Source: Sphaerolaimus hirsutus (Eukaryota; Nematoda; Chromadorea; Monhysterida; Sphaerolaimidae). From it: DNA of 64,000 bases. A program made the translations under genes and the position numbers. The notes beneath the pieces are model-generated. The model was not told the DNA's origin and did no database searches. It worked only from the letters and a program-made list of their open reading frames with translations. This document shows, one piece after another, positions 840-36,037 of the stretch (positions within the stretch are counted from its first letter, which is position 1; the number at the start of each line of letters is the position of its first letter). The stretch is from positions 20,085,206-20,149,205 of the forward strand of contig OZ038459.1 of NCBI GenBank assembly GCA_964036195.1, in the 5' to 3' direction.

Positions 840-3800
840 GAAGAAGAAGCGCGCAAAACGGCCGCCCTGCAAGACGGCATGCTGATGCCGAACGGCGAGA
901 TGCGCCGGTCGTCGGACGTCAGCGGCGGCACGTGGCTCCAGCGCGCCGGCAGGAGACTCAGCCGCGTCGCCGGCAGACACTTGAGATTGTCCAGGGGCAA
1001 TTTCCACGTCGGCGCACACACGGCTAGGTGCTTTTTTTTTTTGGGGGGGGGGTCAAGGCCACCATTTCCGCGCTTTGTGGAATTTCTTGTAAAAATGTTT
1101 TACTTTTACTCATGAGTAAATGTCAGTAAAGTACTTTTGTCTTCGGAAAACGTAAAAGTGGGTATTCTTTTGAGGTAAAGTGGGCTCCAATTTTTGCTTA
1201 AAATCACAATTTTTGAACTTTTTCACCATCAAATTCACTAGTTAATGTGTTTTTGCCTATTTTTATGATATTTTGGATATTTTGTCCCTATTTTTAGCTT
1301 TTCTCTCCTTGAGTTTCCTAAATGCTCTGAAAAAGTCCATAAAAAGCCTGTTCGAAATATGATTTCTGTATTCGCGTACTTTCAAAAAGTAATTTTTCGG
1401 GGGGAAACGTAAACGTATTTACGCAGTACTCGAGTATCCGTATTTATCGAATAAATTAAATACATTTTAACAACTACCGTATTACCTCGAATTAACACCC
1501 CTTGAATTAACCCCCCCCCCCCTCGAAATAGCCCCCTAAAATTCGGCTGCGGAAATAATCAACCCCTCCTCTCGAAATACCCCCCTAAAATTGAGTGTAA
1601 AGGGAACGTACAAGACAAATAACAGTTTGTGATCTGCACAATGCAAAACACACGTTAAAACTGATGATTAAGTGAAGTTAGGGAAGGGTTTTTGTGTATA
1701 TACAGTTATTTATGCCTATAAACACGTATACATCTATTTATGTAATTGTTTGATTTTTCTACTTCCGAGTATGGGGAACTTCCGAAAATTTCTGGCGAAA
1801 TAATAGATCCCCCTCGAATACCCCCTCTCGAATTATCCCCCCTCAAATTTTGCTGGCGAAATAATAAACCCCCTGGGGGTATTTCGAGGTAATACGGTAT
1901 GTCAAACTGTACAATGGAGATATCCAAGGTCTACAGTGTTGCATTGTCATGTTTATCATATTTTCAAATTTTCACATGTGTTTATGATATTGAATTAATG
2001 TTTTAATATTCGTGTTTATAACACTTTTTTAATTTAAAAACCTATTCCCAACGGTTTTTTTAAATAGTTCCATATTTTTTTATACATATTTTTACATATT
2101 GAAGCTTTGAAACCTGTTTTTTCATCGACAAACACCCCGCCACTCAATCTAGCCACACTTAATCCCTTTCCCAGCTCCGGCCACGAGGGCGGGTCGGGCG
2201 CCAGTTCCCCAGCGCACGATTCCGAACAACCCCCCGCCGACGCGCAGCCAGAAGAGCCGCCCGAAGAGAAACGCATGAACGTTCACGATATTACCAAGTT
2301 CGTGGGGGAGTTGTTTCTGGGGTTGTGGTATTTTTGTGGTGGGGATTTTAATGGAGCCGGTGGAAGCGAATCCATGGGGCCACTCAGTGGCGTAGCCAGG
2401 ATTTTTGAGCGGGGGGGGCGGATTGTTTACGGAGCCCGGCGAACGGGGGGGGCGGCGCCCCCCCCCCCCCCCTAAAATTTGACCCCTATAGTAGGGAATT
2501 GGCGCCATGGCGCTGGCGCCATTCGTAGGCGCCACGCCATGGTGTTGGCGCCATTCGTAGGCGCCGCAATATGGCGCCATTGGCGTCACATACCGCTGTA
2601 AATGTATGTAATTTACATACATATACAGCGACATGGACACAATTGAGTGCATTTTAACCCAGCTTGAGGCAATCGCAACCTGTGAAGTAAAAATGGCTGT
2701 AATGTGAAGCAAAAATGCGCGCTTGCGCGCAAAATTTTTGAAAATTGACCCCGAAATCGTTGCAGGAGAACACATTTCCTTACATTTCCATGTCTCACCC
2801 CGGAAGGGGGGGGGCGGCCGCCCCCCCCGCCCCCCCCCCCCTGGCTACGCCACTGGGGCCACTGCCAGACCCTGCAAATTACCCTGTCAAATGTCGTGCA
2901 AAGTGGGAAAAGATATTTATGTAAAATGTCAAACGTCCAGTAAATGAAAAATTGACATTTTCCGGGACATTTGACACTTTACATGACATTTTGCGGTTTT
3001 CCGGTAATTTTACAGGGTCTGGGAGCCATTGCATAAATCGGGGGTGGCATTTTAAGGTGTGGGGGTTCATCAGAATTTCATGTCGTTCGGGGTTTGAGGT
3101 TTCGGTTTGGGGTTGGGGCTACGACTAACAGTTTCTGTTTCCTCGAATAATCCCGATTAAGAGAATGAAAAGCCACATTTTTATTTTATCCCCGATCATA
3201 TTCCTTTCAGCATCAGTGAATTTGGCCCATCATTTTATCATGTAACTTCATTCATCGAAATACGGTACGCAACCAGTCTCTGCAAAAAAAACCCGCTCAA
3301 ACCACCCCACAAAACCCCCCAAAAAGGTTCGCCTTTCCCACGTTGGACGAGCTCCAAGAGCGCGAGGAAAAGTTGAAAGAGGAACGTGCCCAACTAAATG
3401 ATCAGCTCAGCGATATTGGACAGGCAATAGAGACTCTCAGATCTGATCAGAAGAAACTCAGGTCGGAGCAGAATACTACTAGAAGGTTTGTGGGCACTGG
3501 GGTGGTGGTTTATTTTACCGTATTTGCTCGAATAATTCCCCCGGGGAATTATTTTATCGTCGGACCTTTTTGTGGGGGAACTATTCGAGGGGGATTATTT
3601 TAAGGGTATTATCACTATCATATGCCCCTTAGATACTATGCCACTATCATTTAGAATTACTTTTCCCCCACTCCTCTTACAGGGGGGAATTGTTCAAGAG
3701 TGGAATTTTTAAGGGGGAATTATTCAAGCAAATACAGTAAATAGGTATATGAGTTTTCATTCTGTGGACCCTCCAGTCCCGCACTCAAATGTGATGTAAA

Positions 3801-6800
3801 ATGTAAAATTCCCACCAAAAACAAGAGAAAAAAGTACTGAGGATTTGACATTTTAGATGGCATTTTGTTGAGTGCCGTACTGGCACCAGATTGGTGTTGT
3901 GGTTTTCGAGAAGTTATGTATTGAATGTAGCTATGTGACTGGGAGATAAATTTGTTGACATTGACATCCAATTTGTACTGACGCCTAACTTTTGTCAATT
4001 TTATCGATACCTATTTGACACTTGTCTTGTCACCTGAAATTTCGTGGTATTTGAGACTTTTCCCGATTTCTAGCGCCATTTGTCTTCAACAGTTACAATT
4101 TACCTAATTTCACATCCATCCAATCCACCACCATTTCCACCCAGTTCCCTCGACGCCCTATTACCCGAATACAACAGCAAAATACAGCAAAAAGAACGTC
4201 TTGAAACTCAGTTGAATTCTTTGCAACTAGAACTGCAGGAACTCACGCCGACAACTGAAAAATTGGGCAGGAAAAAATTGGAGTTGGAAAACAGTTTGCA
4301 GGCAGTGAACACGAAATTGGATGCTGTCCAACTTTCCGTGGCTGAGTCGAAAGTTAGAAAGTTTTAAGTTATATTTGATGGGACAAGGTTTTTGATGATT
4401 GCGTTTTCTACTCGTTTCGTATGTTTTACCAGTGGTTGCTACAAATCGCAACTACAGTAATTGCCTGAATATGCCACGTCCTTAAATAAGTCCCAATACC
4501 ACGTCCCAATAAACCCCCGTTCACCTCAGTAGGCACCCCAACAACATTTTTAGAAAAATATATGTGCCGTAAATATAAACAGCACCATCCCATTTCGCGA
4601 ACGCAGCGTCCCTAGCATTCCAAAAATCTTAAGAGATTAATTTGAAAATATAATAAAATATTTAGAACAATTTCCACTTATATATGATATTTTTATTTTT
4701 CAGGGTTTTTTTTACAGAGCTATTTTATTGTTTTTTCTTTTTGCAAAATTTGAAGAAAAAAACATAAATGTTTTTAAATATTTCCATTGTATTTTCCGGA
4801 TTTCCCATGAAGATCTGATTATATTCGTTCTAAAATTTCCCTAACATTCAATCACATCACATTCACCTCCCAAACACCTCTCACATCTCCCCCCCCCCAG
4901 GCTCGCCAAAAAGACATCCGTTCGCACCTGCGCACGATCACGGGCGACTTGGTCCGCACCAGGCCGAGCTTGGCTGAGCTGCGCGAGCGGGAAGAACGCC
5001 TCGAGAGGGATCAGAAACACGCTGTTACGCAGGTCGCCGACCAGAAAGGGGAAGTCGACTATAGGATACTCACGTTGAAGATTATGCACCTGCAGGCGGA
5101 GAGGATAGCTACTTTTAAGGTTGGAGGGGTGGTTAGGTTTGGCAGGGTGATTACTTTTCAGTTGTCACTTTTTAAGGTGACAAAAATGTGAAATAATTGT
5201 CAACTGGAAAGTTATAAAACTGGAAAGTAATCACTTTTTACTGCCCTGCCCGCTGGACATGTACGACCCCGATATTTACATGTCGAGCGGGTCTACATGT
5301 TGAGCGTGTTTACATGTCTCGGGAGCCCACGTCGTTGGAGGGCCACAGGCGAAAGTCCTGCGACTTGTAAAATGTCATGTGAAGTGTAAAATGTCATGCA
5401 AAGTGAGATGTATGTCATATAATGTAAAGTGAGAAATTCCCGTTAATTCATTTTTTATAAATATTCTGTTTTTTCAACTGGGAATTTTATATTTTATGGA
5501 CACTTGAGAGACATTTTGCATTGTCGCCCCTAGGAAGTCTTTTACCCCCTTCAAAAAAAACCCACCCAACCCCTCAACCTCAAACCCCTTACCTCCCCCT
5601 ACCCACCCAACCCCTCAACCTCAAACCCCCTACCTCCCCCTACCCACCCAACCCCTCAACCTCAAACCCCCTACCTCCCCCTACCCACCCAACCCCTCAA
5701 CCTCAAACCCCCTACCTCCCCCTACCCACCCACCCTACCCCCCAAGGCGATGCTCCTAACCGAAAAAAACGGCGCGGGAGGCGCCGACGGCGACATGCAG
5801 GACCCGTCTGACGACGACGACGACGACGATGATGACGATGAAGAGGAAAAGAAACCTACCCCTCCCCCGCCAAAGTCGCCCACTCCTGAGAAGAGCCCTA
5901 CTCCTGAGCCTGAGCCTGAGCCTAGTGATAAGGAGGAGGAGAAAGGCACTGATAGGTTGAGTGTGGCCGAGCAGCCGGGTGAGTGCTTGCCAAGGGATTT
6001 ATTTGGCTCTTTTTTAATTGTTCTAAGCTTTCTTAACTAGCATTTTTGTTGCGATTTTTGGTTGATTTGAGTTTGAGTGTCTGAGTGTTTTATGTCTTGC
6101 CTGTCAGCTTTTGCATTACAGAAATTCACCGTAGAGCTGACGCTGCACATCCACAATGAGCAGTAAAACCGGAAAAAAAATTTATATTGCCTTGTAATGA
6201 CGCAGTCATTTTGCTGGCGCTTAGACATACCTAAATACCTAATGACAAGCGCTGTTAATTTGATAGCCTCCTTATTTTATCTCCGTATTTCTTCGATTTT
6301 ATTGACTGTTCATTTACATTGGCTTGCTCGTTTACTTTGCCGGGTCTGTGGGGCATCCGAAAAATACATTGCCGTGTTCAAATACATTGGCGTATGAAAA
6401 TATCGATGTATAATTATCCCATTTATCCTTTTATGTTTGCCACATTAGAAGTCTGACAACTCCTCCGCTGTGACAATTTACCTAATTTTTGATGAATGTA
6501 ACGAGTTTACATTAAACATTTCACATTCATATTAACTCAACAAATGCACATGAAAAATAGACTCTGGAATATACAATGCCATGCTCATTCACTTTGCCAT
6601 GCTCATTTACATTGACCCCCCAAAAAGCTTACGAAACAATACATTGACGGTCAATAAAATCGAAGAAATACGGTATTTATTAGGACGGTGTAGCATTCCG
6701 CACCTAAACCCATTCCGCATTTTATGTTACCCATCCCGCACCTGTGCCCATCCCGCACCTATGGGATGGACCAGGATGCAGGATGGGCCGAAATGCGGAA

Positions 6801-9472
6801 TGGGTATAGATGCGGGATGGGCTGGGGATTAAGTGATTTGCGACCTGCATTGCGGGGGGGGGGGGGTAGGTGCGGAATGGGCCGCAGAACGGCGCGGTGC
6901 GGCAAAGTCAAAGGGCACACAACAATAGAACAGGCATGTAACAATGTGTTGCCTTATGTTTTGACGCCAACCCAGCACACTCATTATAATCTACCCCCCC
7001 CCCCCAACGTGTTGCGTGTCAATGTTATCAATTAAAAGATAACCGACATGCTTATTTACATGACATTACATGACAATTGCCACGCGTTTCGCGGTTGGCA
7101 ATTACATGATAATCCGCGCACATGTTGCCGTTATCTTTTAATTGATCAGTGCCAACTGCAAAATGCATGTGCATTTTTTTGTCATTTATCTTTGGTATTT
7201 TGCATGATTTGGAAAATTTTCTCTGTGAATCGGTAAAATAAATTTTTTCATCACAGGGAATAGGTAATTTTTTCCCACGCTAGTTTGTTGTTCTGCCGCC
7301 ATTGTTGCTCTGAAAAATGACGGAACAGCGAATTAGTGTTGGGTTGCACGACCCGGAACCGGCTTGGTTCCAGGTTCCAGTATGAAACGCTACTTTGACA
7401 AAGTTTTCTTTGTTAAGCATTCCATACTGGAACCTGGAACTAACCCGGTTCCGGGTGCCGGCTCATGCAACCCAACACTAGTTCGTTGTTCCGCCACCAT
7501 TGTGGCTCTGAACAATGACGGAACAACGAACTAGCGTTAAGTTGCATGACCCGGTAGACCCAAGGACGTATCCAGGGGCCCCCTTCCTGGGGTGAGACCT
7601 GAAAAACCTGGGAAAATTTGTTTTTCAGTGAGAAAAAGTCTGATGAAGTTAGTCTGTATGCGCCAATTAATCTCCAACACTATCTTAATAAAAATCAAAA
7701 ATAATATATTGATAGATAATGTCAATCAAAAGTTATGAATTTCCAAAAAACAGCCCAAAAAACGATGACTTTTGACTTTGATCAATTTTTTCTAGTAGGA
7801 AGATGACATTTGCGGATATATGCATGCATGGAAATGTTAAGTTTCTATATATGTAGATTCCAAATCCACCAATAAAAATTTTTTTTGTCACTAAGTAGTA
7901 AGGGCATGTTTGGTTCTTAGGCAAAGCTAGTCTTAATTGATAACATCGACATGAAACACGCCGCGACTGTCTGTTGGGGGGGGGGGGGGTTACATTATAA
8001 TGAGTGTGCTGGGTTGGCGTCATAACATAAGGCAACACATTGTTATATGTCTGTCCTATTGTTGTGCCCTTTGACTTTGCCGCACCGCGCCGTTCTGCAG
8101 CCCATTCCGCACCTACCCCCCCCCCCCGCAATGCGGGTCGCAAATCACTTAATCCCCAGCCCATCCCGCATCTATACCCATCCCGCATTTCGGCCAATCC
8201 CGCATCCTGGCCCATCTTGCACCCAGCATCAGCTAGGTGCGGGATGGGCACAGGTGCGGGATGGGTTACATAAATGCGTGATGGGCTCAGGTGCGGAATG
8301 GGTTTAGGTGCGGAATAGGCCCTGGCCATTTATTAGTGCCACTGCTTCATTCAACGCTACAGTATGTCTCCATTCAAAACGAATTCCGCTCTGTTTAAAA
8401 TTACCAAACCAATTGTGTCGGGGTCAAGCCTATTACGCATTTAAACCCGCCACGCATTTAGACCCGGCACGCATGTAATAATACCCGGCACACATGTAGA
8501 CCACTTTTCATGGCACGCATGTTTTTTCATATCAAAAATTCATGTTCACTTCCACGATGATTTAGATTGTGTTCTGAGCAAGAACATACAGTCCGTGCAA
8601 ACAAAATTGAAAATGATCAATGAAATGAGATTCACACACCAAATATAACAAATTAATTACTTTTAATTTTGCAAATTACTGACTTTCACGTTTTTCCAAA
8701 TGTCTACAGTAGTTTTATTACCACAGAAAGCATAAGTGTGCACAAGAGTTGTTAAGAGTACTGAACTTTTTTCAAAGTATGTGTAAGCATAAAGTACAAC
8801 TGTGATGTGCACTCGCTATCAACTTTTATGGCTTTTACTTCGCCTACTGAAGGGTCTACATGCGTGGCGGGTATAATTAGATGCGTGCCGAGTCTACATA
8901 CGTTACGTGTTTACATGCATAAAGGCTCAGGGTCATTGTCTCGCACTTCACCACCCGCACTGACGCTTTGGGCCGCACGCAGCACCTCAACCGTTCTCAA
9001 ACCCACGCACTTAGGTCGCGCCCGTCGACCTTCAGGTGGATCGGCGGGCGGCCGCGGCGGCAGTTCGTCGCCGCGCGGCGGCCGCGGCGCCGCCGGCCCC
9101 CCGTCGCGCCGCCCGTCCACAGCGTCGAGTCGCGGCGCCGCCGGCGCGGCCAGGTGCCAGCCCCGCACCCTGTAAAGTGCCCTGGAAAATGTCAAGTGTC
9201 ACGCAAAGTGTCAAAAGTCAGGGAAAATGCCCTGAAAAATGGCAACTCGGTTGCCATTTTGCAGGGCATTTTACATGACTTTTGACACTTTGCTTGACAT
9301 TTGACGCTTTACTCGGTATTTTACAGGGTCCGGGACTGCCCCCAGGGGTGCGGCGAGGGGCGCCCCAGCTGCCGCGGGCAGGGGGGCTCCAGCTGCGGGC
9401 AGAGGGGCCCCCGCGAGGGGTGCAGCCAGGGGCAGAGGAGTACCCCCCAAAGTGCGCGCTTTGAGTGCCTGA
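840..9472 (+). CDS. 3' part of a coiled-coil, acidic and RG-rich protein gene (8 exons visible)
   Basis: Family not recognised; the 5' end lies left of the window or was not found. Exons that join without a frame break: 840-1027, 2175-2297, 3327-3485, 4145-4352, 4901-5119, 5747-5978, 9015-9153 (or from 9036), 9346-9472. All use GT-AG with C-rich acceptor tracts. About 455 residues are seen. Order: Arg-rich stretch, Ser/Pro/Glu linker, then three exons of heptad-rich coiled coil (DELQEREEKLKEER; LPEYNSKIQQKERLETQL; RQKDIRSHL), a run of about 13 Asp/Glu, SPTPE repeats, and an RG-rich tail (GRGAPAAGRGAPARG). The tail is split by an introner at 9154-9345. Two ends are possible: read-through to TGA at 9470-9472, or splicing at 9451 to 9531 giving a short KRGR end. 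RG tails often bind RNA, but function here is inference only. Confidence 0.7.
1080..1474. mobile_element. TTTTAACAACT-ended repeat with GAAAACGTA words
   Basis: The right end is TTTTAACAACT. Inside are GTACTTTT, GGAAAACGTAAA, ACTCGAGTA and an A/T-rich core (CACCATCAAATTCACTAG). The same family recurs at 35190-35436, 38944-40159, 42620-43330, 50700-51640 and 63648-63728. It is non-coding; the left end is uncertain. Confidence 0.55.
1475..1899. mobile_element. TACCGTA-ended TIR element, 425 bp
   Basis: Ends are TACCGTATTACCTCGAATTA and TATTTCGAGGTAATACGGTA. The inside has repeated CCTCGAAATACCCCC words flanking an A/T-rich core, with the typical AATTTTGCTGGCGAAATAATA block. It lies in intron 1 of the coiled-coil gene. 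Confidence 0.75.
2373..3036. mobile_element. Diverged introner-family foldback element, split by a hAT-like element
   Basis: The left end GGGGCCACTGCCAGACCCTG is interrupted at GGGCCACT by the element at 2385-2855. The remainder (CCTGTCAAATGTCGTGCAAA, then ACATTTGACACTTTACATGA to TTTACAGGGTCTGGGAG) runs to about 3036. It sits inside intron 2, not at an exon junction, and its splice-like ends are degraded. Confidence 0.6.
2385..2855. mobile_element. hAT-like non-autonomous element with 8-bp target duplication
   Basis: TIRs are CAGTGGCGTAGCCAGG and CCTGGCTACGCCACTG. A perfect 8-bp duplication GGGCCACT flanks it (2377-2384 and 2856-2863). The inside has long G and C runs and GGCGCCATGGCGCTGGCGCC words. 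TIR type and 8-bp duplication fit the hAT superfamily. There is no transposase. A sister copy is at 50901-51367. Confidence 0.85.
3516..3739. mobile_element. TACCGTA-ended TIR element (AATTATTCAAG word)
   Basis: Runs from TACCGTATTTGCTCGAATAA to ATTCAAGCAAATACAGTA. GGGGGAATTATTC-type words repeat inside, with the TTATTTTATCGTCGGA block seen across the superfamily. It lies in intron 3 of the coiled-coil gene. Confidence 0.7.
4353..4900 (+). other. Intron 4 of the coiled-coil gene, no clear element
   Basis: A/T-rich intron with a possible decayed repeat at about 4455-4545 (CCACGTCC words). It ends in a 10-base C run before CAG at 4898-4900. Nothing else supported. Confidence 0.5.
5352..5525. 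repeat. Degenerate introner-family-like foldback
   Basis: TGTAAAATGTCATGTGAAGTG at the left and ACACTTGAGAGACATTTTGCA at the right resemble the introner arms. The ends are worn. A similar worn copy lies at 3766-3892 (GTAAAATG and TGACATTTTAGATGGC). Both are within introns. Confidence 0.35.
5561..5735 (+). repeat. 41-bp minisatellite, about 4 copies
   Basis: The block CCCAACCCCTCAACCTC starts at 5565, 5606, 5647 and 5688, a constant 41-bp period with very few changes. The unit has almost no G on this strand. It ends 11 bases before the splice acceptor at 5746, so it forms the pyrimidine/C-rich tract of intron 5. Confidence 0.9.
6282..6676. mobile_element. CCGTATTT-ended TIR element (CATTTACATTG word)
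   Basis: CCGTATTTCTTCGATTTTAT faces ATAAAATCGAAGAAATACGG. The words CATTTACATTG, TTTACTTTGCC and TACATTGCCGTG recur inside. Same end scaffold as the TACCGTATTTCCTCGAAATA family but a different filler word. Confidence 0.75.
6683..8333. repeat. Large inverted repeat with CCCATCCCGCACC words
   Basis: The arm 6683-7037 (CATTCCGCACCTAAACCCAT and so on) recurs inverted at 7930-8333. Each arm repeats CCCATCCCGCACC or its complement, has a C/G run, and ends ATGTTATCAATTAA. The spacer of about 0.9 kb holds another foldback (7336-7483). Apparent ORFs here are translations of the repeat. Confidence 0.75.
7336..7483. repeat. Foldback element between 56-bp direct repeats
   Basis: The palindrome starts AGTGTTGGGTTGCACGACCC and ends with the near complement CATGCAACCCAACACT. 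The core CCAGGTTCCAGTATG faces CATACTGGAACCTGG. It is flanked by two similar 56-bp blocks at 7281-7336 and 7481-7536 (TTGTTGTTC...GACGGAACA), themselves partly palindromic. Confidence 0.7.
8418..8937. mobile_element. TIR element with GGCACGCATG words
   Basis: The left end AAGCCTATTACGCATTTAAAC faces GTTTACATGCATAAAGGCTC. The words ACCCGCCACGCAT, CCCGGCACGCATG and their complement (ACATGCGTGGCGGGT) repeat within about 120 bp of each end, around an A/T-rich core. Non-coding. Confidence 0.6.
9154..9345 (+). mobile_element. Introner-like foldback element forming an intron of the RG-rich gene
   Basis: The 192-bp intron starts GTGCCAGCCCCGCACCCTGT and ends GGGTCCGGGACTGCCCCCAG. Its two halves are near-perfect inverted repeats (CAAGTGTCACGCAAAGTGTC facing its complement; CTCGGTTGCCATTTTGCAGG at the centre). 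Removing it joins GCC-AG to G-GGT in frame (phase 2) between two GC-rich RG-coding exons. The whole intron is the transposon. Confidence 0.85.
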
Positions 9473-9569: not shown

Positions 9570-9784
9570 GTACCAATCCCAGATCCTGTAAAATGCCTTT
9601 TAAAATGTCAAATGTCATGCAAAATGTCAAATGTCATGTAAAATCCCCTGTAAAATGGCAAACGTACGTTCACCATTTTACATAGCATTTTACATGACTT
9701 TTGATAGTTTTTACACGACTTTTGACACTTCCCATGACATTTGACATTTTACAGGGCATTTTACAGCGTCTCGGACGGTTTCAG
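9570..9784 (+). mobile_element. Introner-like element at a short 3' exon
   Basis: GTACCAATCCCAGATCCTGT to GCGTCTCGGACGGTTTCAG, with the arms CAAATGTCATGCAAAATGTC and TGACACTTCCCATGACATTT. It follows a 39-bp candidate exon at 9531-9569 that ends AGCTAGCCAG and is preceded by TTTTTCTTTTTCAG. It probably lies in the 3' untranslated part of the coiled-coil gene. Confidence 0.65.
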
Positions 9785-9911: not shown

Positions 9912-11183
9912 CAACGATGGAAAAAACACAGAAATTGAACACAGAAACTCATTGAGTTTCTGTGTTTTTGTTTTACACAGAAACACGGAAACTCATAAAT
10001 TTTGAAAAACTCAAAACTCAAATGAGTTTTTTTTTGGAGAACACAGAAACACAGAAACACGGAAACACAGAAAAGTTTTTTGAGTTTTTGTGTCTTTTTC
10101 AGCGAAGCAGTTGAATGCACATTAATTCAGTTAAACTAAACAAGATAAGATAAGCATCTATAGTATGTAAATATGTACATAATGTATTCATATTTTATAA
10201 GGGTACAAAAAAGAAATTCAAGATGGCATGCACATCTCATGGTGGATTTGACAATTTAAGTTTCGACATTTTAGTATACCTTATTACCTTGAATTAACCC
10301 CCCTTGAATTAACTCCCCTCAAAACGGACTGGTGAAATAATAAGCCCCGCCCCCCTCGAAATACCCCCCTCTGGGATGATGTACATCATGTATCCAATGT
10401 ACATGATGTATTTACCGTATTTCCTCGAAATACACCCCCCTCGAAATACCCCCCCTCGTTTGACCCCCCCTCTCGGGACCACTATGAAACAATCACCCCC
10501 TGGGGGGTATTTTGAGGAAATATGGTATTACTGCTAATTTGCATCGCAGCTACACATAGACTGTACTAGGTTGTGTAGCTATCTACATGTTTATCTCAAA
10601 TATATCCTGTTTGTACGCATTTATAACCTGTTTTGGGTACATATATGCCTACTATTTTCTGTGATCCTTACAAAACTTTCTGACGAAATTATAATGCCCA
10701 TAGGGGTATTTCAAGGTAATATGGTAGTTGTAGTTGTAATTCTGTAGTCTTCCATACAGTGCACATCCATTGAAGAATTTTGGAGTACTGCGTGAATTGT
10801 CATTTCTGGGCATTTTGTTGCTGGTGTTGTGATGTTGATGTCCTCATTGTGGACATTTTTATGGACTTTTTTGACACTTGAATGAATACACAAATGTTTT
10901 GTGGGGTTAAAACATGTGCAAAACCAATATATTATAAGAAAACCACTGTTTCCAGATCGAAATGCTGTAAATCAAATTTTTTTGGAGGAAAACTCGATTT
11001 TTTTGGAAAAAACTTGAGTTTTTTTAGAAAAAACTCAAAATACTCGAGTTTTTACAAAAAACACAGAAATAAAAACAGAGTTACTCAAGTTTTTTTCAAA
11101 AAAAAAACTCAAAACACAGGTATTCATTTTTGAAAAACTCAAAACACAGAAAGTGTTTTTTTTGGAGAACTTACCCATCGTTG
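9912..11183. mobile_element. hAT-like element with AACTCAAAA/ACACAGAAA words
   Basis: TIR CAACGATGG to CCATCGTTG, with a perfect 8-bp duplication TGTGTACT (9904-9911 and 11184-11191). Inside are runs of ACACAGAAA and AACTCGAGTTTTTT words. It is interrupted at 10277-10726 by TACCGTA-type elements; the sister copy at 49518-50370 lacks this insert and shows the empty site. Confidence 0.85.
10277..10726. mobile_element. Nested TACCGTA-type elements
   Basis: Outer ends TACCTTATTACCTTGAATTA and TTTCAAGGTAATATGGTA; an inner copy at 10413-10527 starts TACCGTATTTCCTCGAAATA and ends TTTTGAGGAAATATGGTA. Comparison with the uninterrupted copy near 49875 places the insertion at a TA. Confidence 0.7.
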
Positions 11184-13332: not shown

Positions 13333-16300
13333 TCACTCCCCCTTGAGCCTCTTCTCCCCCTCGGGCTCGCTAAAGTGCCCCTTATCCCCCCTCTTGGCTC
13401 CGTCGGTGAGCTCGGAGCGCCTGGCGCCGGCGGGGCGCGCCTTGGCGCCGCCGTCCACCTCGGCGAAGCGGAAAAACACGGACAGGAGGAAGGTTACGAA
13501 GAAACCGGACAGCATGAATGGGGTCACGTGGTACATTGAGAAGACGTCTAGTTGGAAGTGTCCATGGACGTTCCATAGGAAGTGCACCGCTTGTGTCTGG
13601 TGGGGGGGGGGGGGGGGGGGTTGGCGGTTGTTTACGGGGGTTTAAGTTTTTTGTGTTGAATGTTGGGCTAATTAGTCACCTTTCGGCCCGTTGTGTTGAG
13701 GTCAGTTTTGTAAAAATATCTCGGATATTTATATATTATTTAAATCAGAAAATATTTAAAAATATTTATTTTCCCCATGATTTTCCAGTGAGATTGAGTT
13801 CTTTTTTCTTTTTGAAATACTTTTCCTTTCTCTTAGATTTTAAAAAATATCAGAGAATATAAAAATACAATGTTTATATTTATTTATATTTTTCAAGACT
13901 TTCTTGAGACATTTAATTATATTTTCGTTTTGAGATACCTACTTTCTGAGATTATATGACAGTCAATTTCCTCATTGTCATGCATTTTTCTATGATATTT
14001 TAACTGCAGTAATGGCACCAGCGCAACTACTTTAGTGACACTGCCGATTGTCGAAAAAAATTCATAAAATCCGTAATTCGTTTTTTTTTGTAAAATTTGT
14101 AAAGCAAAGTGTGAACATTTTCGATTTTCGACAGCTATACTCGGCAGACATGATACTCTACAAATAGATATGATTTATGTGTTTGGTTGGCAGACGGCCA
14201 ACTGAAAACTTATGCATCAACATTTCGCAAAAGGAAAAAGAAAAAAAAGAAACGTAAACACCAGAATTGACTAAAGTGATGACGTCATGATGGGGTGTTT
14301 CCTCCGGAAAAATGTACGGTGTAATGTCATCCGAGTATAAAACCTTTTTTTCCCGATTTCACCATTCCACAACCCCCCAAATAACCCCCCAACCCACCAA
14401 AATCCTGCCAACCACAAAGTATTTCGCCTCCCTCCTTTGAGCAAAATGCGCCACGTAGGGCGCTGTGTAGGCGCTGCACAAACTCAGCGATGCAGATAGA
14501 CGGCCGAAACACGCGTGCGCTCCGTCCAGGGGGAACTCCCGTTTGATCTGGTGGGGGGGGGGGGTTATTTGATGGATATAGTCGGGGGAAATCACACTAA
14601 GTATGGTTCAACTACCATAACCCGTTTGAATAATGAACCTAAACTATGCGGATTTTCATAAAAATATTTCGTTTTTACTTTATAATAATAAATTACGAAA
14701 TTTATCACAATATTTTATTCATTTAATTATGGTAGGATTCTGCAAATGCTTTGCGGTCCGCCGGGTATAATGTTTGCCGTGAACGTAATTAGCAGGTAAT
14801 GAGGTGACCTAATTAGTTGCTGAACTTTGTCTATGTCTATGTTCCGTATGACTCAATTCTGATATACCTTGCTTGATAACGAATTCACCGCAGCGTATTA
14901 GGCACATAAATTACGCACATACTGTATTTATTTGTTCGAATAATACCCCTGGAGAATTGTTTTTTCGTCAGACTTTTGTGGGGAACTATACGAAAGGGGA
15001 TTATTCAAGGGGAAGAATTTTTAAAATCAAAGTTACAAAATAACGTGCCATTTTTCATCAAATTGGGCATAATAAATTGATCATATGCCTTAAGGGGGGA
15101 ATTATTCAAGGGGGTTATTTTCCTCACTCGTCTTACACAGGGAGAATTATTCAAGAGGAGAATAATTCAGGGGGAATAATTCAAGCGGGAATTATTCAGC
15201 GGGAATTATTCAAGCAAATACGGTATTATAACGTCCACACAAACTCACGACAGTCTTGAGTATCTGCAGCGGGAACGCGTAGTGCAACAACCCGGTAACC
15301 ATCAGCGCCGCCGCGTCCAAAGCCATCGCAACGGCGATCCAATTGTTCCTGGGGGCACTCCCAGACCCTGTAAAAGACCCTGTAAAGTGTCAAAAGCCCT
15401 GTAAAATGTCATGTGCCATGTAAACAACCCTGTAAAGTGTCACGTGTATCCAAATATTTTTTTATCGTATCCAAATCTTATGTCAAAAAGTAAGATTTGG
15501 ATACAAAAACATAAGAATTGGATACAATAAAATAAGATTTGGATATACATGACACTTCACGGGGTATTTTACATGACATTTTACACTTTACAGGGTATTT
15601 TACATGACACATGACATTTTACAGGATCTTTGACACTTTACAGGATCTTTTACAGGGTCTGGGGTGGCACCTGGACACCAAACCGCACGCGTGCATTTGA
15701 CCGTTGGCCATTAGATCGCCACCGCAGCCGCAACACAGGCTATCTGGCAGCTTGCCAACTCTGGTCTGCGCAGAGTACTGCTGGCAGTGGTGGGCCACGG
15801 TGCCGGCGCGGATCGAGTGCACGATGTTGCCGAGCATGGACGAGAAGAAGACGCACATGTAGAGCAGGGGGAACTGGAATGGTTGAGGAATTTTCGTGTG
15901 TTTAGGGCTAATTCCGCGAAATGTGAAGTGAAATGAGAAGTGAATTGTGAAGTGAAAAAATAAAAAAACGTAAAGGATTATTTCTGGCTTGCGTTACTGA
16001 AAGCATTGTTTCTGAACACGGTAATGATGATTTAGTGGGAATCATGCCAATTTGGAATTGAAAATGTTACCGCTTTCAAAAAGATAATTTCACTTGACCT
16101 TTTACTTCACTTTTTGCGGAATTGGCACCAGGAGAGTAGATTTTGGGATGGAGATATGATAAAACACGTGTTTGATAGATTAAATCGCACCTTCTGATTG
16201 AAATGCAGCCCCTTGCGCTCCCACATGTTGTAAGTGGAGTAGCCGACGGCGACCATCATGAAAATATTTGCCTGCGCGGTTTTAAATTAACCTAATAAAC

Positions 16301-17678
16301 GCCAAAACAGTTGAAACGCGTGAGACCCGAATAACGTACGATGACAACCAAATTTCGAAAAGTTTTCTAATTTTGTATAAAATATGTAAAAAATGCAGAA
16401 ACAGTATCCCAAAAAATTTCAACGTCACGTGGCTAGGTATACCAATTGCGGCAGGAAAATATGTGTAATTGTGTCTGCGGTCACAACTTGGCTTCAGCAA
16501 AAGATGTGTTCAAAATTCGAAAACGCAACAATTCAATGGAAAAAATACAAACATTCAAAACATATTTTTTTAAACGAAAACTATATTTTCGGTGAAAAAA
16601 TGGAAATCCGAAAAGTCATTATCGAGAAACACTCAAAAATCTAAACACATCTATTCACCATCCTTACACCCCCCCCCTCGAACCAGCACGGTGCCGAGCA
16701 TGACGCTCGCCTGCAGCGCCCTGTCCTTGGTGTTGCGCAGCGCCAGCCTGGGCACGCCCATCGACAGCAGGTGCGCGCCCACGCCGCGCAGCAGGAACAC
16801 GTGCACCTTGTCCAGGCTCCCGCCCGTGGTCTGCGGGAGGGGTGGGTGTTGTGTGAGGGATTAGGTGTTTAGAGGGTTGGGTGGGAGACTTTTGTGGAGC
16901 ATTCTGTGTGTGGATGTCAAAAAGGACCTCACGAAAATGGAAATGTTAAATGTAAAGTGCCAAAGTTTGGAGATTTCCTTTCACCGAAATTTGTTTCCTT
17001 CACTTTCTTGCCAGATATTTTTAGTGCCAGAAGGGGCACACTTTAGGGGCCATTTTAGTCCCACACACTATTTGACAACAAAAAAGGTCAACTAAATTCA
17101 ACTGAATTTTGGTTAATTGTGTGATTTCAACATGCCTATGTGATAGTGCATAGTTTATTTTATATAGTGACACTTGATTTTCATTGTATCTGTCAAGTGT
17201 GATGCTCTTAAAAATTATTTTGTGTTATTTACCCTGTGTGTTGACATTCAGTTGACATTTTTGCGATGTCAACTAGTTTGTGTGGTCCCAAAGAAATGTT
17301 TGCTTGTCGGAAAACGATAAATTGAAACCTGAAAACATTTTCCAGCGTCGAAAATTGTAAAGGTAAAAATTTCGCATTCGGAAAACGGGCAACGGAAAGT
17401 TGTGAACACTAATTCCGGGTTTTCGGTACCTTTTATCTTCAGAAAATCTTCACACTATTCAAACACACCCCTCAAAATAAAAACAAAAAAACCACCTGCG
17501 GCGCCAACACGATCTGCGGCGCAATTACCAACGCCAAACCCATGATGCACTGAGCAAAAAACGCATCGGCCATCCAAAAAACCCTCCTGCCGCACGGGAT
17601 GCTGATCAAAATGAACAAGGCGCACACAATGTGCACGGATTCGATCTGTTTCAGGTGCAAAGCGTGCACCCATTGCAT
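13333..17678 (-). CDS. Multi-pass membrane protein of two related halves, 375 aa, 7 coding exons
   Basis: Family not recognised. Coding exons in transcript order: 17678-17496 (exon from 17686), 16830-16684, 16271-16191, 15873-15671, 15348-15249, 14547-14398, 13596-13333. All are GT-AG and all join in frame; TGA at 13335-13333. The ATG at 17678 is preceded in frame by TAA in the next exon upstream. About eight hydrophobic segments are visible. The halves align loosely: AFFAQCIMGLALVIAPQIVL with DAAALMVTGLLHYAFPL; LDKVHVFLLRGVGAHLLS with LDGAHACFGRLSASLSLC; a third and a fourth segment follow in each. This suggests an internal duplication of a four-helix unit. The C-terminus is a charged Arg/Glu/Gly tail of about 40 residues. 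Intron 4 is an introner (15349-15670). Transport or receptor roles cannot be told from sequence. Confidence 0.8.
14588..14737. repeat. Foldback repeat CTACCATAACCC
   Basis: CACACTAAGTATGGTTCAACTACCATAA at the left and TTTATCACAATATTTTATTCATTTAATTATGGTAG at the right. A second copy is at 41776-41985, where an extra palindrome (GGAATTAGAGCTCAGCGTC) sits in the middle. Lies in an intron of the membrane-protein gene. Confidence 0.6.
14920..15225. mobile_element. TACCGTA-ended TIR element (AATTATTCAAG word)
   Basis: TACTGTATTTATTTGTTCGA to TTATTCAAGCAAATACGGTA. GGGAATTATTCAAG or AGAATTATTCAAGAGG words recur at least five times at the right side. It lies in the intron after exon 15348-15249. Confidence 0.75.
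15349..15670 (-). mobile_element. Introner-like element forming an intron of the membrane-protein gene
   Basis: On the minus strand it starts GTGCCACCCCAGACCCTGTA and ends GGTCTGGGAGTGCCCCCAG. Excision joins TCC-AG to G-AAC (Ser-Arg-Asn) in frame, phase 2, between two exons of the same membrane protein. The core has GTATCCAAATCTTA facing its complement; this core marks a subfamily shared with the copy at 48488-48980. Confidence 0.88.
15905..16129. repeat. Foldback repeat with GTGAAGTGAAA words
   Basis: GGCTAATTCCGCGAAATGTG at the left, TTTTTGCGGAATTGGCACC at the right; the arms are made of GTGAAGTGAAATGAGAAGTG-like words. A second copy, itself split by other elements, spans 55729-56778. Confidence 0.6.
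16831..17495 (-). other. Intron 1 of the coding part of the membrane-protein gene
   Basis: It carries a worn member of the CTAGTTGACA family at about 17165-17290 (GACACTTGATTTTCATTG to GATGTCAACTAGTTTGTG). Otherwise nothing identified. Confidence 0.45.
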
Positions 17679-17802
17679 GAATGAGACTGATAGACTAGGG
17701 CTGGTCATTTTTGGATGAATTTGCTCGCTTGCGGGTGGTAATTTTTTCAGTCTGCGAAGTATATTTAGCATATACCTAGTGGAAAATTCCCAACTCAATG
17801 GG

Positions 17803-18042: not shown

Positions 18043-18720
18043 CTTCTATTTACGAGCCTTCCCTAGCCAAATCGAATTCACGCTTCGAACGCCCTCCCAA
18101 ATGCAGAGCGGCCGCCGGTCCACATTGGGCCGCGTCTTGGCTCCTGCGTTGCACTGCATGAGCTACGCGCGCGCGCATAAATGCATATGCAGTGCGCTGC
18201 ACCTGGGCCCGGTCCCAGGCACTGTAGAATGTCAACTGTCAAATGTCAAGTGTCATGCAAAGTGTCAAAGGTCATGTAAAATGCCCTGCGAAATGGCTAC
18301 TAGTCCCAGACCCTTTAAACGACCATGTAAAATGTAAAATGTCAAGCAAAGTGTCAAAAGTCATGTGAAATGCCCTGCACACTGGCAACTAGTCCCAGAC
18401 CCTTTAAAATGCCCAGTTAAATGTCAAATGTCATGCAAAATGTCAAAACTCATGGACAATGCCCTGCGAAATAGCAACCGAGTTGCCATTTTGCAGGGCA
18501 TTTTTCATGACTCTTGACACTTTGCATGACATTTGACATTTTACAGGGTCTGGGACTGGCACCAGGGCGCGTGCGGCAGCGTCGCATCGCAGTGCGCAAA
18601 AGCCTATGGCCGCTGGCTCGTGGCTCGTTTTGTATCGATCGGAACGGCCGCTTGGCTGGTTTGCATCTAGGAATCTGGAAGGCGACCAGTGCGTTGAAGG
18701 ATGGGCGGGGAATTGACACT
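18043..18720 (-). other. Candidate 5' untranslated exons of the membrane-protein gene
   Basis: A 160-bp exon at 18202-18043 ends AATAGAAG before GTGGGT. In the frame that enters the coding exon at 17686 it contains TAA, so it is read as untranslated. It is preceded by an introner intron (18562-18203), and a GC-richer block from about 18720 to 18563 (ending CGCGCCCTG) may be the first exon. No promoter motif could be fixed. Confidence 0.45.
18203..18562 (-). mobile_element. Introner-like compound element in the 5' untranslated region
   Basis: Minus-strand start GTGCCAGTCCCAGACCCTGT and end TGGGACCGGGCCCAG. It holds a full foldback unit (about 18395-18562) plus two partial half-units, each starting GTCCCAGACCCTTTAAA. 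This looks like tandem growth of the element inside one intron. Confidence 0.65.
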
Positions 18721-20056: not shown

Positions 20057-20317
20057 TGACTAATTAAACTAATTGGTCACTCTAATTAAGTCGTCTCGCG
20101 CGAAATTTCATTGGAAATTGGTTTTCACAGCCTGAGTCACACGCACGAGGTTACGGTAATACGGTTTTGGACGCAAAATCGTTATTAGCGCGTGCATATT
20201 TACTTACGATTTTACAAGTACAAGTCACAAGAAACGAAATATTTATTTTTATTATTTTATTTCGTTCACAGCTAGCTACCACTTTGCTAATAAGCAATCA
20301 ATCGATCGAGATTTGCT

Positions 20318-22306
20318 ATGGAGGAACGCGTACGCGCTCAGCGAGGCGTCGCCGCCGCCGCAGCTATGCCTGTGAGCAACGTAGATGAGTCCGACACAAC
20401 TCATCCGTTGACTCAACATAGCCGGGCGTTGACTGGAGTGCGCAACGGAGTGCTACGTTTCACATCCAAACCGATTCCTAAAATCGTCAAAGACGAGTCA
20501 CAACCCGCCGCCGTAAACATACGCGCGGCGGAGGAAGTATTAGAATTACTTCAGGCCTACGGCTACCAAGCCAAGATGAAACGCTTGGACCTGTCTACGG
20601 CTATGGACAAATTCACAACTATAGTCCAAGATTACATCACAAGCCTAGACAGAGACGAAGACGGAGTGGCCAAAGAGATAAAGAGCGCCAACGCAAAATT
20701 GGAGCGCGCGCTCTACTCGGGCTCGAACAACGCGATGATGCTCATGGATGAGCTGGAATCGAGGATGGCGACCGGCCAAGCGCAAATCAAATCCGCGGAA
20801 AGGTTGATACTTTCCTTGAAAGGTCAGTCAAATGTCAATGTTGATTTAACTACTCAACCCCCTTCACAACCCCCTTACAACAATGTCAATATGGGAAGTA
20901 GTTCTCAACCTTCACAACCGGAAACTTTATTAAAGTTACCTAAAATCGAGCTTGCTAAATATAACGGTGATCCGTTAGAATGGGCAGCTTGGTGGGAGAT
21001 TTTTCGAGCTCAAATTCACGACCGAGCTAATTTGTCAACTGGTATGAAATATACATACCTCAAGCTCAGCCTTACCGGTCCAGCAGCAGAACTGCTGGCC
21101 GGATTAAAAGGTGATGGTCGAGATTACATCACAGCGGTCACTATGTTACAATCAAACTTTGGTGAAACGCATCGGGTACAAGCAGCCCTTTGGGATAAAT
21201 TGTATTCACTCGAAAAACCTTCGTCAAGAGGAGACTCTCTCACAAATTTCACACGAACCCTTTTGTCAACTCTCAATCAACTTAAAGAAAGGGGTGAGAG
21301 TGTCGATTCTGGTGCAGTGTTAAGAATAATTCGTGGTTATCTTCCCGATAATATTGTTCTTGCCGTCACAGAAGAACACCGGAATTCGATGCGCACCGCT
21401 GTAACCGGCGACACCGAACTCACAGTCGTCAGGTTTGTTGATGCATTAACTACCATTGCTCGTGCTCGGTTAGATGCGATGAAAACTGAACAACAAAGTT
21501 CACAATCTTCAACTGTTGTTCAGAAATCACAAAATTCATCATTAAAAAAGCCACAAAATGGAGGAGGTTGGCAACAGCAAAAGAAAAAAGGAAATAAATC
21601 ACAAAATACCTTTTCAAAACCAAAACCTATTCACAATACGGTTGCTTTTGCTGGTACCAATGCTAACGTTGGTAAATCACAAGGAAAAAATAAAAATTCC
21701 ACTCAACCTCCCAGAACTCCGGCGATCGGAGCGATTAGTCAAAAGCAATCCTCACAACCTGCTGCTGACTATCGCAAGCCGAAATTCGAGTGCTTGTTCT
21801 GCGGCATCAAAGAGCACTACACAACCGACTGCCCTCAATACGTCACACCGAGAGAGCGCACTGAACGGTTACAAGCTTTGGGCGATGTGTGCACGCGCTG
21901 CACGCGCAGAGGCCATCAAGCGGCACAGTGCACTCAACGACTGAGTTGCTACTATTGTCGCCAGATTGGTCAGCATCACGGGGCGTTCTGTCCTACCAGA
22001 CAGGCACCCGCCAGGCGTCAGGTAAACAATTCACAAAATAAAGCCTTTGTCAAAGCAACGAGCGCTAATTTTGTCAACGCTCAGGTAATCACAACGGGCG
22101 CGGCGTCGTCACATGCACCGCCATCGTATCCGCCTTCACACACGGAACCGATGAGCGTGTGTGTCATCCCCCCGGACGAGAACGATTTCCGGTGGAGACA
22201 GAATACGCTGTATCAGCTGGACATGGACGGCCCGCTAGACATGGGCGAATGGCCGAGGCCCGCAAACGCGCTACAGGCGAAAGCTCAGGAGGAAGCCCGC
22301 AAGTAA
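20318..22306 (+). CDS. gag: Gag polyprotein of BEL/Pao element
   Basis: 662 residues. The N-terminal third is helical and charged (about 60-170). Residues of about 205-400 form the Pao-type Gag core (LPKIELAKYNGDPLEWAAWW; DSLTNFTRTLLSTLNQLKE). A Gln/Lys/Ser-rich linker follows. About 490-560 hold three zinc knuckles: CLFCGIKEHYTTDC, CTRCTRRGHQAAQC and CYYCRQIGQHHGAFC, the last with altered spacing. It would form the particle and bind RNA. It ends at TAA, but the next ORF continues in the same frame, so Gag-Pol may once have been one protein or be made by read-through. Confidence 0.92.
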   Translation: MEERVRAQRGVAAAAAMPVSNVDESDTTHPLTQHSRALTGVRNGVLRFTSKPIPKIVKDESQPAAVNIRAAEEVLELLQAYGYQAKMKRLDLSTAMDKFTTIVQDYITSLDRDEDGVAKEIKSANAKLERALYSGSNNAMMLMDELESRMATGQAQIKSAERLILSLKGQSNVNVDLTTQPPSQPPYNNVNMGSSSQPSQPETLLKLPKIELAKYNGDPLEWAAWWEIFRAQIHDRANLSTGMKYTYLKLSLTGPAAELLAGLKGDGRDYITAVTMLQSNFGETHRVQAALWDKLYSLEKPSSRGDSLTNFTRTLLSTLNQLKERGESVDSGAVLRIIRGYLPDNIVLAVTEEHRNSMRTAVTGDTELTVVRFVDALTTIARARLDAMKTEQQSSQSSTVVQKSQNSSLKKPQNGGGWQQQKKKGNKSQNTFSKPKPIHNTVAFAGTNANVGKSQGKNKNSTQPPRTPAIGAISQKQSSQPAADYRKPKFECLFCGIKEHYTTDCPQYVTPRERTERLQALGDVCTRCTRRGHQAAQCTQRLSCYYCRQIGQHHGAFCPTRQAPARRQVNNSQNKAFVKATSANFVNAQVITTGAASSHAPPSYPPSHTEPMSVCVIPPDENDFRWRQNTLYQLDMDGPLDMGEWPRPANALQAKAQEEARK

Positions 22307-22366
22307 CACAGCGAAAACGAGCTGTGGACGACGCTCCGTGCCAACCTCATCCAGGAAGGCACAGAT

Positions 22367-24814: not shown

Positions 24815-24931
24815 TGGAAAATTCACAGTAATTTCCTCTGGACCGATAGTACAGTTGTCATCGGCTGGCTATATACCGCAAAGCCGCTGGCTACTTTTGT
24901 CAACAATCGGGTCACAAAAATCCATTCACTA

Positions 24932-27900
24932 ATGTCAAAACATTGCATTCAAATTTGCAAGGTTGCTACAAAAGACAACCCAGCCGACATCGTGTCACGG
25001 GGTTGTACTTTTGATCAACTAATGATCGAAACAATGTGGTTTACCGGACCCACATTTTTAGCTGAACCTCTCACATCAACCATGCTTGACATTTCGCAAT
25101 ATCAAGCGCAACCTGTCACCGAAGAGCTTGCGAAAGGCGACACTCACATCAGTCGACCTTTATATGCTGGAGCAGTAACTTCACAGCCTGTTTCACAGCC
25201 TGATTCACAACCAGCTAATGCTCTTGCACAGCAAGTACCTGTCAATTTGGACCCCAATTTGTCACAAAATGTCACTCCTCAAAATCCGTTTGTCGAAAGT
25301 CGACAACGTCACATCCCTTCAAATCCATTCGAAATCGACATTCAGCGATTTTCAACACTGTCAAAATTGTTGCGTACTGTCGTATATCTGCTTCGTGTCA
25401 AAACATATTGGCTAAATCGCTCCATGCATAAAGCTGCAAAGCGCGAAAGCGAATATTTATCAAAACCCATCACACAAGCTGATTTAAACGAAGCATTTAG
25501 ACATGTATTGCGCATTTCACAGGCAGAAGAATGTGCCAGTTGCATTTCACAAGCACAACTTGGCAAACACCACATGCTCAAATGGGACGCGTGGGATAAT
25601 TTATTATATTGTGTCACGCGTGTGTCTCACAAAGAACACCGAAACCCTTCATTGTTTTACTACCTGCCAAAGACCGGGTGGTTAACAACGCTAGTGGTTA
25701 CTCATTTTCATGAGCTTGCTGGTCACAGTGGCATGCTTCACACTTTAGCAGATTTACGCGAACACTGCTGGTTGTCAAGTGCCAAGCAGGTAGTTGCAAA
25801 AATTTTGCGTAAATGTGTCACATGCCGCAAAGCGGAAGGAGGTCCATTCACATTACCTGATTTTCACACATTACCTGTCACTCGAACTCAATCACAAATC
25901 AAGCCATTTCAACATATTGGCATTGATTATATGGGACCGTTAGTTTATTCACAGAACGGAACCCGTCACAGTCAACACATTTTGTTGCTAACATGCTTCA
26001 GTACACGCGCCATTCATTTAGAGTCAACCAATAGTGTCTCGACAGCCGACACAATTATGGCTCTAAATCGTTTTATTTCACGTCGAGGCATGCCGGACAC
26101 AATTTGGTCCAACAATGCCCCAGCATTCAAAAATTGTGTCAAAATGCTACCGGACGTAAAATGGCATTTTATCACAGCCAATAGTCCTTGGCAGGGCGGC
26201 GTGTACGAACGCATGGTAGGCTTAGTCAAATGCTTGCTCAAAAAAGCATGCGGACGACGTTGTCTCACATGGCATGAATTTCTCACAGTCATGCTTGACG
26301 TCGAATTCTCCGTCAATACGCGACCATTGTCATACTTGTCAAACACAGACATTGGTGCGGCAATACTGCGCCCAATACATTTTCTTTGGGGCACCCCACC
26401 ACCATGTTACATGGATGAAAAACGTGAGTTGGAACTCGATTCCACCACGATTGAACCCATGCGAAAAATTCCAAAAGAGGAATGGGAAAGAATGACGGAT
26501 GGATCTTTCAACCTCACACCCTCACAAATCGACAAAACCTACACACTCACACCCCCACGTGTCAATGACGTCAACTGCATTGACACAATTGCACTCAACT
26601 CTGTGCCTGAAAAGGACAGAGATGACATCACATTACTTTGGGACCAAATTCGTCACAATCGTGAAGTGCTTTGGTATGAGTGGTCACGTCAATACATTGA
26701 CCTACTCAAAGATCGAGCTAAAAATCAACGCTTGAAAAAAGGCACAATCAACGAAGCTCCCAAACGTGGCCAAGTGGTGTTAATCACAGATGATAAACAA
26801 CCACGCGGCATGTGGCAATTGGGCCGCGTTCACGAAATACACGTGTCAAGCGATGGCAAAATACGTGCAGTCACAGTATTGTCAAGCAACGGTCGTCGCA
26901 CACGTAGATCTCCATCTAACCTAGTACCTCTTGAAATCGACACAGAGGACGGTGTTGAATATAAAATCGACACTGAGGTAAAAGATGATGATAATTCACA
27001 ACCTTCACCTGATAAGGGTGATGATTCACAAACAGATCAATCACATCAACAATCACAATCTTCACAGCAAGATGCAAGACGCGCAAACCCACGTCGAACA
27101 TGTCGCTACACTGGCACATATTCGTTCTGGGGAAACGTGTCACATTTAATGGCGCTCACGTTGCTAATACAATCAAAATTAGCCAACGCGCTGACATGGA
27201 CAGATCAATATCACAAAACTTTCAATCTGTGCCATAAAACACGAACTGGTCATGCAATTCAACTTCCGGAAAAAGTAACATGTCACTTTCCTCAAGTTAC
27301 AGCCATAGAGGATATTGTGGTGTCCATATGGACGTTGCGTGTTCAGCCGCAAACGACACCAATTTATAGATGCTTTCAACAAGAGCATACTATAGTCACG
27401 TATATGAGTCTGGTGGGCGGAAAAGCTATGCTGCCACCAGAAATCATTAAAAACCACAGAGTCACAACCTACGATTGCATGATCGCCTACCAAAATAAAA
27501 CTTGGAAAGGCGAACCCTTAATAAAAATTGGTCATGCATTGTGGAGCACCAACAAATCACTTCACATAGATTATTGTTACTTTTGTCACAATTTGAGTAA
27601 CACAGTAATGAACTTTCACATAGAGGAAGGTGTGGTCGCAAGTCTTGACGGAAAGAAAATAGTTTCCGAAATTCAAGATCTGTCACATTGCAACCCACAA
27701 GCCGGCTATTGTTATGACAGCGACAATGGCGTCTCTTTATGGAATGCTACTGCCTTTAACAAGCAGTGTGCATTCCAAGAGATTGGTCAATTCGATGCGC
27801 AATATTCACAAAATCACTACATAGTAGAAAAACTGCAAGCTGCATTTTCTGTCACATGGAGATCACAACAATTTCCAAATAATGCAGAATGCGTGCCAAA

Positions 27901-35867: not shown

Positions 35868-36037
35868 GCGCCACTCCCAGACCTTGTAAAATGCTTATAA
35901 AATGTAAAAGATCATACAAAGTTTCAAAAATAATGGTAAAATGCTCTATTAAATGGCAACACGATGCCATATTATGGGCCATTTTACTTGACTTTTGACA
36001 CTTTGCAGCGCCGGTGCTGGTGCCCTTCGGTGCCCAG
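35868..36037 (+). mobile_element. Introner-like element with GC donor
   Basis: Starts GCGCCACTCCCAGACCTTGT, so the usual GTGCCA donor reads GCGCCA (a GC-AG intron would be needed). Arms: CAAAGTTTCAAAAATAATGG and GACTTTTGACACTTTGCAG. The acceptor is either TTTGCAG (36008) or GTGCCCAG (36037). The preceding exon ends GCCAG as at the other introners. Confidence 0.6.

Follow-up and report, generated by a model that had tools for sequence, protein, structure and literature searches.

The origin of new introns is a long-standing question, and a 64,000-nucleotide stretch of the genome of the nematode Sphaerolaimus hirsutus (assembly GCA_964036195.1, contig OZ038459.1, positions 20,085,206 to 20,149,205 of the forward strand; the whole stretch is called the window below) raises it in a specific form: can a DNA transposon that lands in an exon be a spliceable intron from the outset? 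The element in question, at 9154-9345, belongs to a family of miniature inverted-repeat transposable elements (MITEs) and coincides with a predicted intron of a gene rich in arginine and glycine codons (the RG-rich gene). Judged from sequence, it is probably an introner (a probability of roughly 0.86) – a non-autonomous, cut-and-paste hairpin MITE that would form a spliceable intron upon landing in an exon. Introners are rare in animals; the main text of Gozashti et al. 2022 (PMC9860276) has them in two animal groups only, and the string "nematod" is absent from it. The features at the locus are:

9154-9345, plus strand, 192 nt: copy of the hairpin MITE family, filling a phase-2 intron
9151-9153 and 9343-9345, plus strand: left and right copies of a 3-bp target duplication, CAG, recognised from the pairing of triplets across copies
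9036-9153, plus strand: upstream RG-rich exon, with acceptor cttcag and donor CCAG/gtgccag (slash at the junction)
9346-9472, plus strand: downstream RG-rich exon, to the stop codon TGA
3328-3485, 4145-4352, 4901-5119 and 5747-5978, plus strand: 5' exons of the RG-rich gene (coiled coil, then acidic stretch) in a by-eye model with a provisional 5' end

The borders described in an earlier note on this DNA are exact in the sequence: GGCCAG precedes the element and GGGTGC follows it, and the element starts with GTGCCA and ends with CCCCCAG. The left terminal inverted repeat (TIR) is GTGCCAGCCCC, which includes the donor GT, and the right TIR, ending ..GGGACTGCCCC, is followed by the duplicated CAG, which includes the acceptor. 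The inverted repeat that the note reported is present, though "near-perfect" was generous for this copy – its arms, 9150-9246 and 9250-9346, are 97 nt each and 82% complementary without gaps, against 94% in the family consensus. The predicted RNA fold of 9140-9360 has an energy of -136.7 kcal/mol (z = -13.4), equalled by 0 of 200 shuffles. Excision of the element leaves both RG-rich exons in one frame, as the note had it, and this frame continues that of the acidic exon before them; the joined product reads ..EQPG-GSAGGRGG..GAAGAAR up to the junction and GAARGAP..ALSA-stop beyond it. The open frame at this one site is weak evidence by itself because the RG-rich exons are 76-87% GC, and their flanks leave further frames open too. 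Homologues of the RG-rich gene numbered none at 0.001 among 8000 candidates scored, comparison with the PDB gave weak coiled-coil matches only, and the read-through frames of three window regions had no Pfam match above the cut-off. All three gene models discussed for the window were assembled by eye, and only that of the 7-exon gene described below has a protein homologue.

Is the element one of many? The genome (348 Mb in 762 contigs) was searched with the DNA of 9100-9400 and of 38100-38380, giving 3921 and 4156 first-look candidates, of which the best 40 each were scored. From these, 39 copies were fetched in a first set and 33 new ones in a second, 72 in all, with 70 tabulated after two duplicates were removed. 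The copies lie between CWG triplets and have the form GTGCCAGTCCC...GGGACTGCCCC with a length of 189 nt. The consensus of the 39 first-set copies and the window copy, GTGCCAGTCCCAGACCCTG...CAGGGTCCGGGACTGCCCC, is likewise 189 nt long and is self-complementary at the 94% given above. Across 140 kb sampled as 14 fixed-position stretches of ten kilobases, there were 6 near-full-length copies of at least 100 bits and 9 copies at any score, from which the family would number roughly 15,000 copies genome-wide by proportion (Poisson estimate about 5,500-32,000).

The earlier note called the family active, which the age estimates do not bear out. First-set copies are on average about 5% off the consensus, and the window copy is 8.5% off. 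Among the 780 pairs formed by the first set and the window copy, the mean difference was 9.2% and the minimum 3.7%. The first-set sample gives no sign of very recent transposition.

The ends of the copies point to a DNA transposon with a fixed target. Copies were placed in whichever orientation put GT at the left if either end had it, and a shift of at most 2 bases was permitted for the right triplet. With this convention 67 of the 70 copies start with GT, and the flanking triplet is CWG on the left in 63 and on the right in 61. Both triplets are CWG in 56 copies – CAG/CAG in 31, CAG/CTG in 2, CTG/CAG in 10 and CTG/CTG in 13 (left/right; Fisher 4e-5) – and the remaining 14 copies lack CWG on one or both sides. 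The 15 copies in AT-rich DNA (flank GC under 0.5) divide into 5 CAG/CAG, 6 CTG/CTG, no mismatches and 4 with another triplet (Fisher 0.002). Because the two triplets agree in 11 of the 11 AT-rich copies with CWG on both sides, we conclude that insertion produces a 3-bp CWG target duplication. The target logo (C.74, C 1.0, A.67/T.31, G.97, then G.77 beyond the insertion point; n=39) corresponds to CCWGG. Terminal inverted repeats and a target duplication are thus both present, as in DNA-transposon MITEs, and similarity among copies runs up to both splice boundaries, with GT at the start and, next to the right TIR, the second triplet of the duplication at the end.

These ends also correct the account of the splice sites. 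The acceptor was said to be built into the ends of the element, which is rejected here, because the identity of the right triplet tracks that of the left and CTG insertions begin without AG. The companion suggestion, that the element gives the GT and the duplication gives the AG, holds in principle and fails for CTG sites: because the duplicated target is CWG, AG can come only from CAG sites on the coding strand.

Do the copies lie in coding sequence? For the first set, joined flanks were scanned against Pfam in one best frame per strand, in sense for 37 of 39 loci and in antisense for 28 of 39; for the second set, 10 of 33 loci, chosen by eye, were scanned in sense only. This yielded a hand-made list of 17 domain-supported ("coding") loci. 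In the seven best cases, the match runs ungapped over the junction – UQCRC1 (L014, 3.3e-19), cuticle collagen (L029, 3e-13), the cotransporter NKCC1 (L032, 5.5e-22) and AP-2/AP-1 beta (L079, 4.9e-27), in which AG is present, and Kir2.2 (L048, 1.4e-26), a zinc finger (L035, 4e-13) and a CDF transporter (Cation_efflux, L082, 7e-11), in which it is absent. A kinase domain (L040) is also ungapped over the junction, below the Pfam cut-off. Matches to an intermediate filament (L034), an M14 peptidase (L018), a DB module (L028) and a COPA/B propeller (L092, 2e-26) span the junction with gaps somewhere, as do a ZP-N domain (L037) and a kelch repeat (L095) below the cut-off, the latter not counted as support. 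DB modules are typical of nematodes; together with the cuticle collagen domain, which Pfam names for nematodes, and the Plectus homologue described below, the DB module points to a nematode or a close relative. The list is completed by the one-sided matches L011, L015, L038 and L064, the last below the cut-off. Ungapped homology across the junction shows insertion into coding sequence, and every assignable domain match is in the sense frame, with none assignable in the antisense frames scanned. In a further locus, L071, a family copy lies within a likely neuropeptide precursor with repeats like GKRHSGYGNKYSSWL, and the repeat resumes past the junction.

Two further, unrelated genes of the window carry a family copy as a predicted intron, in agreement with the earlier note, so that, on sequence, a single genome has similar introns in multiple genes with no relation to one another:

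15349-15670, minus strand: family copy forming intron 4 of a 7-exon gene, CAG then GTGCCACCCC..GTGCCCC then CAG; TIRs kept, middle different
13333-17708, minus strand: 7-exon gene for a multi-pass membrane protein, with start and stop codons, coding sequence 1158 nt, 385 aa
17496-17708, 16684-16830, 16191-16271, 15671-15873, 15249-15348, 14398-14547 and 13333-13596, minus strand: exons of the 7-exon gene
48488-48980, minus strand: family copy with a long extra middle, making up the first intron of a gene for a small secreted protein, CAG then GTGCCAGGC..CACC then CAG
47991-48995, minus strand: small secreted-protein gene (by-eye prediction), exons 48981-48995, 48316-48487 and 47991-48070, with product MYGYQ, then after the junction TIPKICTILMVLAVLLPTALG..YGRG and stop

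A protein of the nematode Plectus sambesii, 34% identical across 81% of the query (E 1.7e-48), is the sole match to the product of the 7-exon gene at E 0.01 among 5124 candidates. Intron 4 alone is in phase 2; the remaining five introns are in phase 0, are 34-38% GC and have no family match at E 1e-3, and two of the five hold a 9-base end motif, CTGGTGCCA. No Pfam match was found for the junction piece around intron 4 or for the small secreted-protein product. In both copies, repeats of the type TATCCAAA replace the usual middle; the loop may hold a second, nested element, or the two copies may form a separate subfamily.

What route from transposon to intron would these data allow? In the proposed mechanism, a MITE of 189 nt with a 3-bp duplication targets CCWGG and copies the CWG. 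Its ends are GGGG and GTGC, the second presumably drifted from the first, and in one orientation the element begins with GT. At a coding-strand CAG site, insertion would give CAG/GTGCC...GCCCC/CAG, in which the donor is formed by the element and its flank and the acceptor AG by the duplication, and exact excision would restore the original mRNA. At a CTG site no AG would be made, and the right triplet of exonic copies would then often become CAG through a selected T-to-A change. The family is large, and its CCWGG target already resembles an exon junction (CAG/G), which would make this a simple, one-step route to an intron in a nematode. CAG insertions, with an immediate acceptor, and CTG insertions, with none, form a natural contrast for studying selection on the birth of splice sites.

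The distribution of the acceptor fits such selection. AG is present at the right end in 40 of 55 copies in coding or GC-rich surroundings vs 6 of 15 in AT-rich DNA. Among copies with CTG on the left, the right triplet in GC-rich or coding surroundings (n=19) is CAG in 10, CTG in 7 and another in 2; in AT-rich DNA (n=6) it is CAG in 0 and CTG in 6 (Fisher 0.019 for CAG vs CTG). This bias towards CTG/CAG in a coding context suggests selection for an acceptor-creating change. Two copies show the opposite mismatch, CAG/CTG, and each has GC-rich or coding flanks.

Several observations weigh against the introner interpretation, and they are taken up here with the alternatives they bear on. The strongest alternative, in our view still improbable, is that these are ordinary MITEs inserted in genes and left unspliced, whose hosts are broken alleles, pseudogenes or genes that tolerate read-through. 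Continuous frames attest insertion into a gene and not splicing, because deleting a transposon together with one copy of its duplication always restores the gene; any precise insertion would yield them. Moreover, AG is missing from its expected place in 6 of the 17 domain-supported copies (L015, L035, L038, L048, L064 and L082), and Kir2, the zinc finger and the CDF transporter make three AG-less copies among the seven best ungapped cases. Unspliced MITEs do not readily account for conserved hosts that are intact on both sides of copies already about 5% off the consensus, for assigned domains in sense only, or for AG being commoner in GC-rich or coding surroundings, with CTG/CAG pairs found only there. 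An RA-domain match (2.6e-4) in alignment A2, outside the assigned ones, may be in either orientation.

The AG-less domain-supported copies are the main unexplained observation under the introner interpretation. At L082 there is an in-frame AG 6 nt downstream (by eye); at L048 the next in-frame downstream AG is at 21 nt, and its use would lose seven residues. That AG-less exonic copies are simply younger is not supported, as CTG/CTG copies are 5.3% off the consensus (5 copies) vs 5.6% for a comparison group of 26, defined as the first set minus the hand-made AG-less and CTG/CAG classes. A tentative idea, which we think has the odds clearly against it, is that hairpin introns are excised, by splicing or otherwise, even without AG, the near-perfect stem pairing both ends, and that CTG insertions (GT...CTG), in conserved genes such as Kir2, are lost from the message in this way and later gain AG by T-to-A change under selection. 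If true, one genome would display new introns at successive stages toward the canonical form.

A second alternative, and a very unlikely one, is that the transposons entered pre-existing introns, some by chance beside a splice site, and created no intron. Some copies do lie in AT-rich DNA, 15 of the 70, and in the fixed-position sample the setting looks exonic for only 1 of the 6 good copies, at whose junction a KH-domain match (E 5.6e-5) stops; the other 5 have flanks of 30-43% GC and no exonic look. Because the searches favour query-like copies, the exonic share in the two fetched sets does not carry over to the family at large. At the 7-exon gene alone, the prior-intron account is allowed locally: about 34 residues ahead of intron 4 are without a Plectus counterpart, so an upstream donor is possible there. 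This unmatched stretch is exon-like at 60% GC, higher than all 2371 105-nt windows of the five other introns, a level that 5.9% of the whole window reaches. Entry into existing introns is hardest to reconcile with the ungapped cases, in which the copy fills the entire gap between conserved residues and no intron remnant is left. Spread of RNA copies through reverse splicing, the route suggested for introner-like elements of fungi, would fit element ends that are splice sites in genes and can nevertheless be all but set aside, given the CWG duplications, the inverted terminal repeats and the AT-rich copies with matching duplications, including CTG/CTG, which are unexpected from a spliced GT-AG intron.

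The remaining family copies in the window are not clear introns:

2857-3024, plus strand: decayed copy 5' of the first placed exon of the RG-rich gene, probably within an intron of that gene and adjoined by the insertion of an unrelated element
9570-9784, plus strand: copy 3' of the RG-rich gene stop, CAG then GTACC..TTT then CAG; on sequence, possibly an intron of the 3' untranslated region
18203-18562, minus strand: compound copy built from three units of the family, CTG then GTGCC..GGGCC then CAG
35868-36008, plus strand: ambiguous copy that starts with GC in place of GT and is damaged at its right end; an exon-like stretch precedes it
38145-38334, plus strand: copy in AT-rich DNA with no long joined frame, CTT then GTGCC..CCCC then CTG; CTG-type, without AG
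52289-52430, minus strand: shortened copy in AT-rich DNA, TTT then GTGGC..CCCC then CAG

The three units of 18203-18562 indicate that family copies are able to land in one another or become joined. Other elements starting with CTGGTGCCA, with different interiors, lie at 3771-3886, 14013-14021 and 16123-16131 (-). The string CWGGTGCCA occurs 7 times in the window vs 0.68 expected, and several related MITE families may therefore share these ends.

How does the family compare with known systems? Algal transposon-derived introns described by Huff et al. in 2016 reportedly rely on the target duplication to help build a splice site, a likeness to the present family in a different kind of host. The larvacean Fritillaria borealis is said (Henriet et al., 2019) to have many transposon-like, partly non-canonical introns; it too is an animal, though a chordate. 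Introners as treated in PMC9860276 form families whose members are similar introns of unrelated genes, alike to near the splice boundaries, and many are DNA elements with TIRs and target duplications; in a Chrysochromulina family the 5' splice site comes with the element and the 3' one is co-opted, and GC 5' sites occur rarely. As far as that paper's account goes, the S. hirsutus family is alike in having similar introns in unrelated genes, TIRs with target duplications and an element-borne 5' site, and it differs in its 3-bp CWG duplication, in that the usual intron is one hairpin, and in that CTG insertions seem to gain AG later. No report of nematode introners was recognised in the titles and abstract openings covered from the literature on introners and animal intron gain, a body that does not include a 2025 PNAS survey of the horizontal transfer of introners.

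The NuwaI group of the PHIS superfamily, as outlined by Han et al. 2015 (PMC4482050), has a CWG duplication and TIRs usually starting with GGG, and is confined to animals. The present family shares the CWG duplication and an animal host; of its two ends the right is GGGG and the left, unlike NuwaI, GTGC. The outline of NuwaI in PMC4482050 describes no intron role. By analogy, target choice and GGGG-type ends resemble NuwaI, and we claim resemblance only. The Harbinger-type transposase domain PF13359 (DDE_Tnp_4) has 163 matches in the genome, from the best 150 of 306 first-look candidates scored. Among the matches listed (e.g. G000:C7:3244940-3245572), most have near-equal scores and about four internal TGA codons, perhaps marking an intron or a shared defect, a pattern that suggests recent spread. 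A viral origin was considered and dropped: a 17-base piece of the TIR is found in two IMG/VR contigs, and with only some 16-25 bases matching this is attributed to chance.

The window holds other repeats. A BEL/Pao-type retrotransposon with long open frames occupies 20294-30040 on the plus strand, and its part 22307-24811 encodes the Pao peptidase and the reverse transcriptase; the best protein matches found for it share no more than 34% identity, too little to be informative about the host. Another MITE family is apparently represented by a common repeat with ends such as TACCGTATTTCCTCGAAATAC, at 277-300, 381-396, 678-699, 10411-10434 and other sites.

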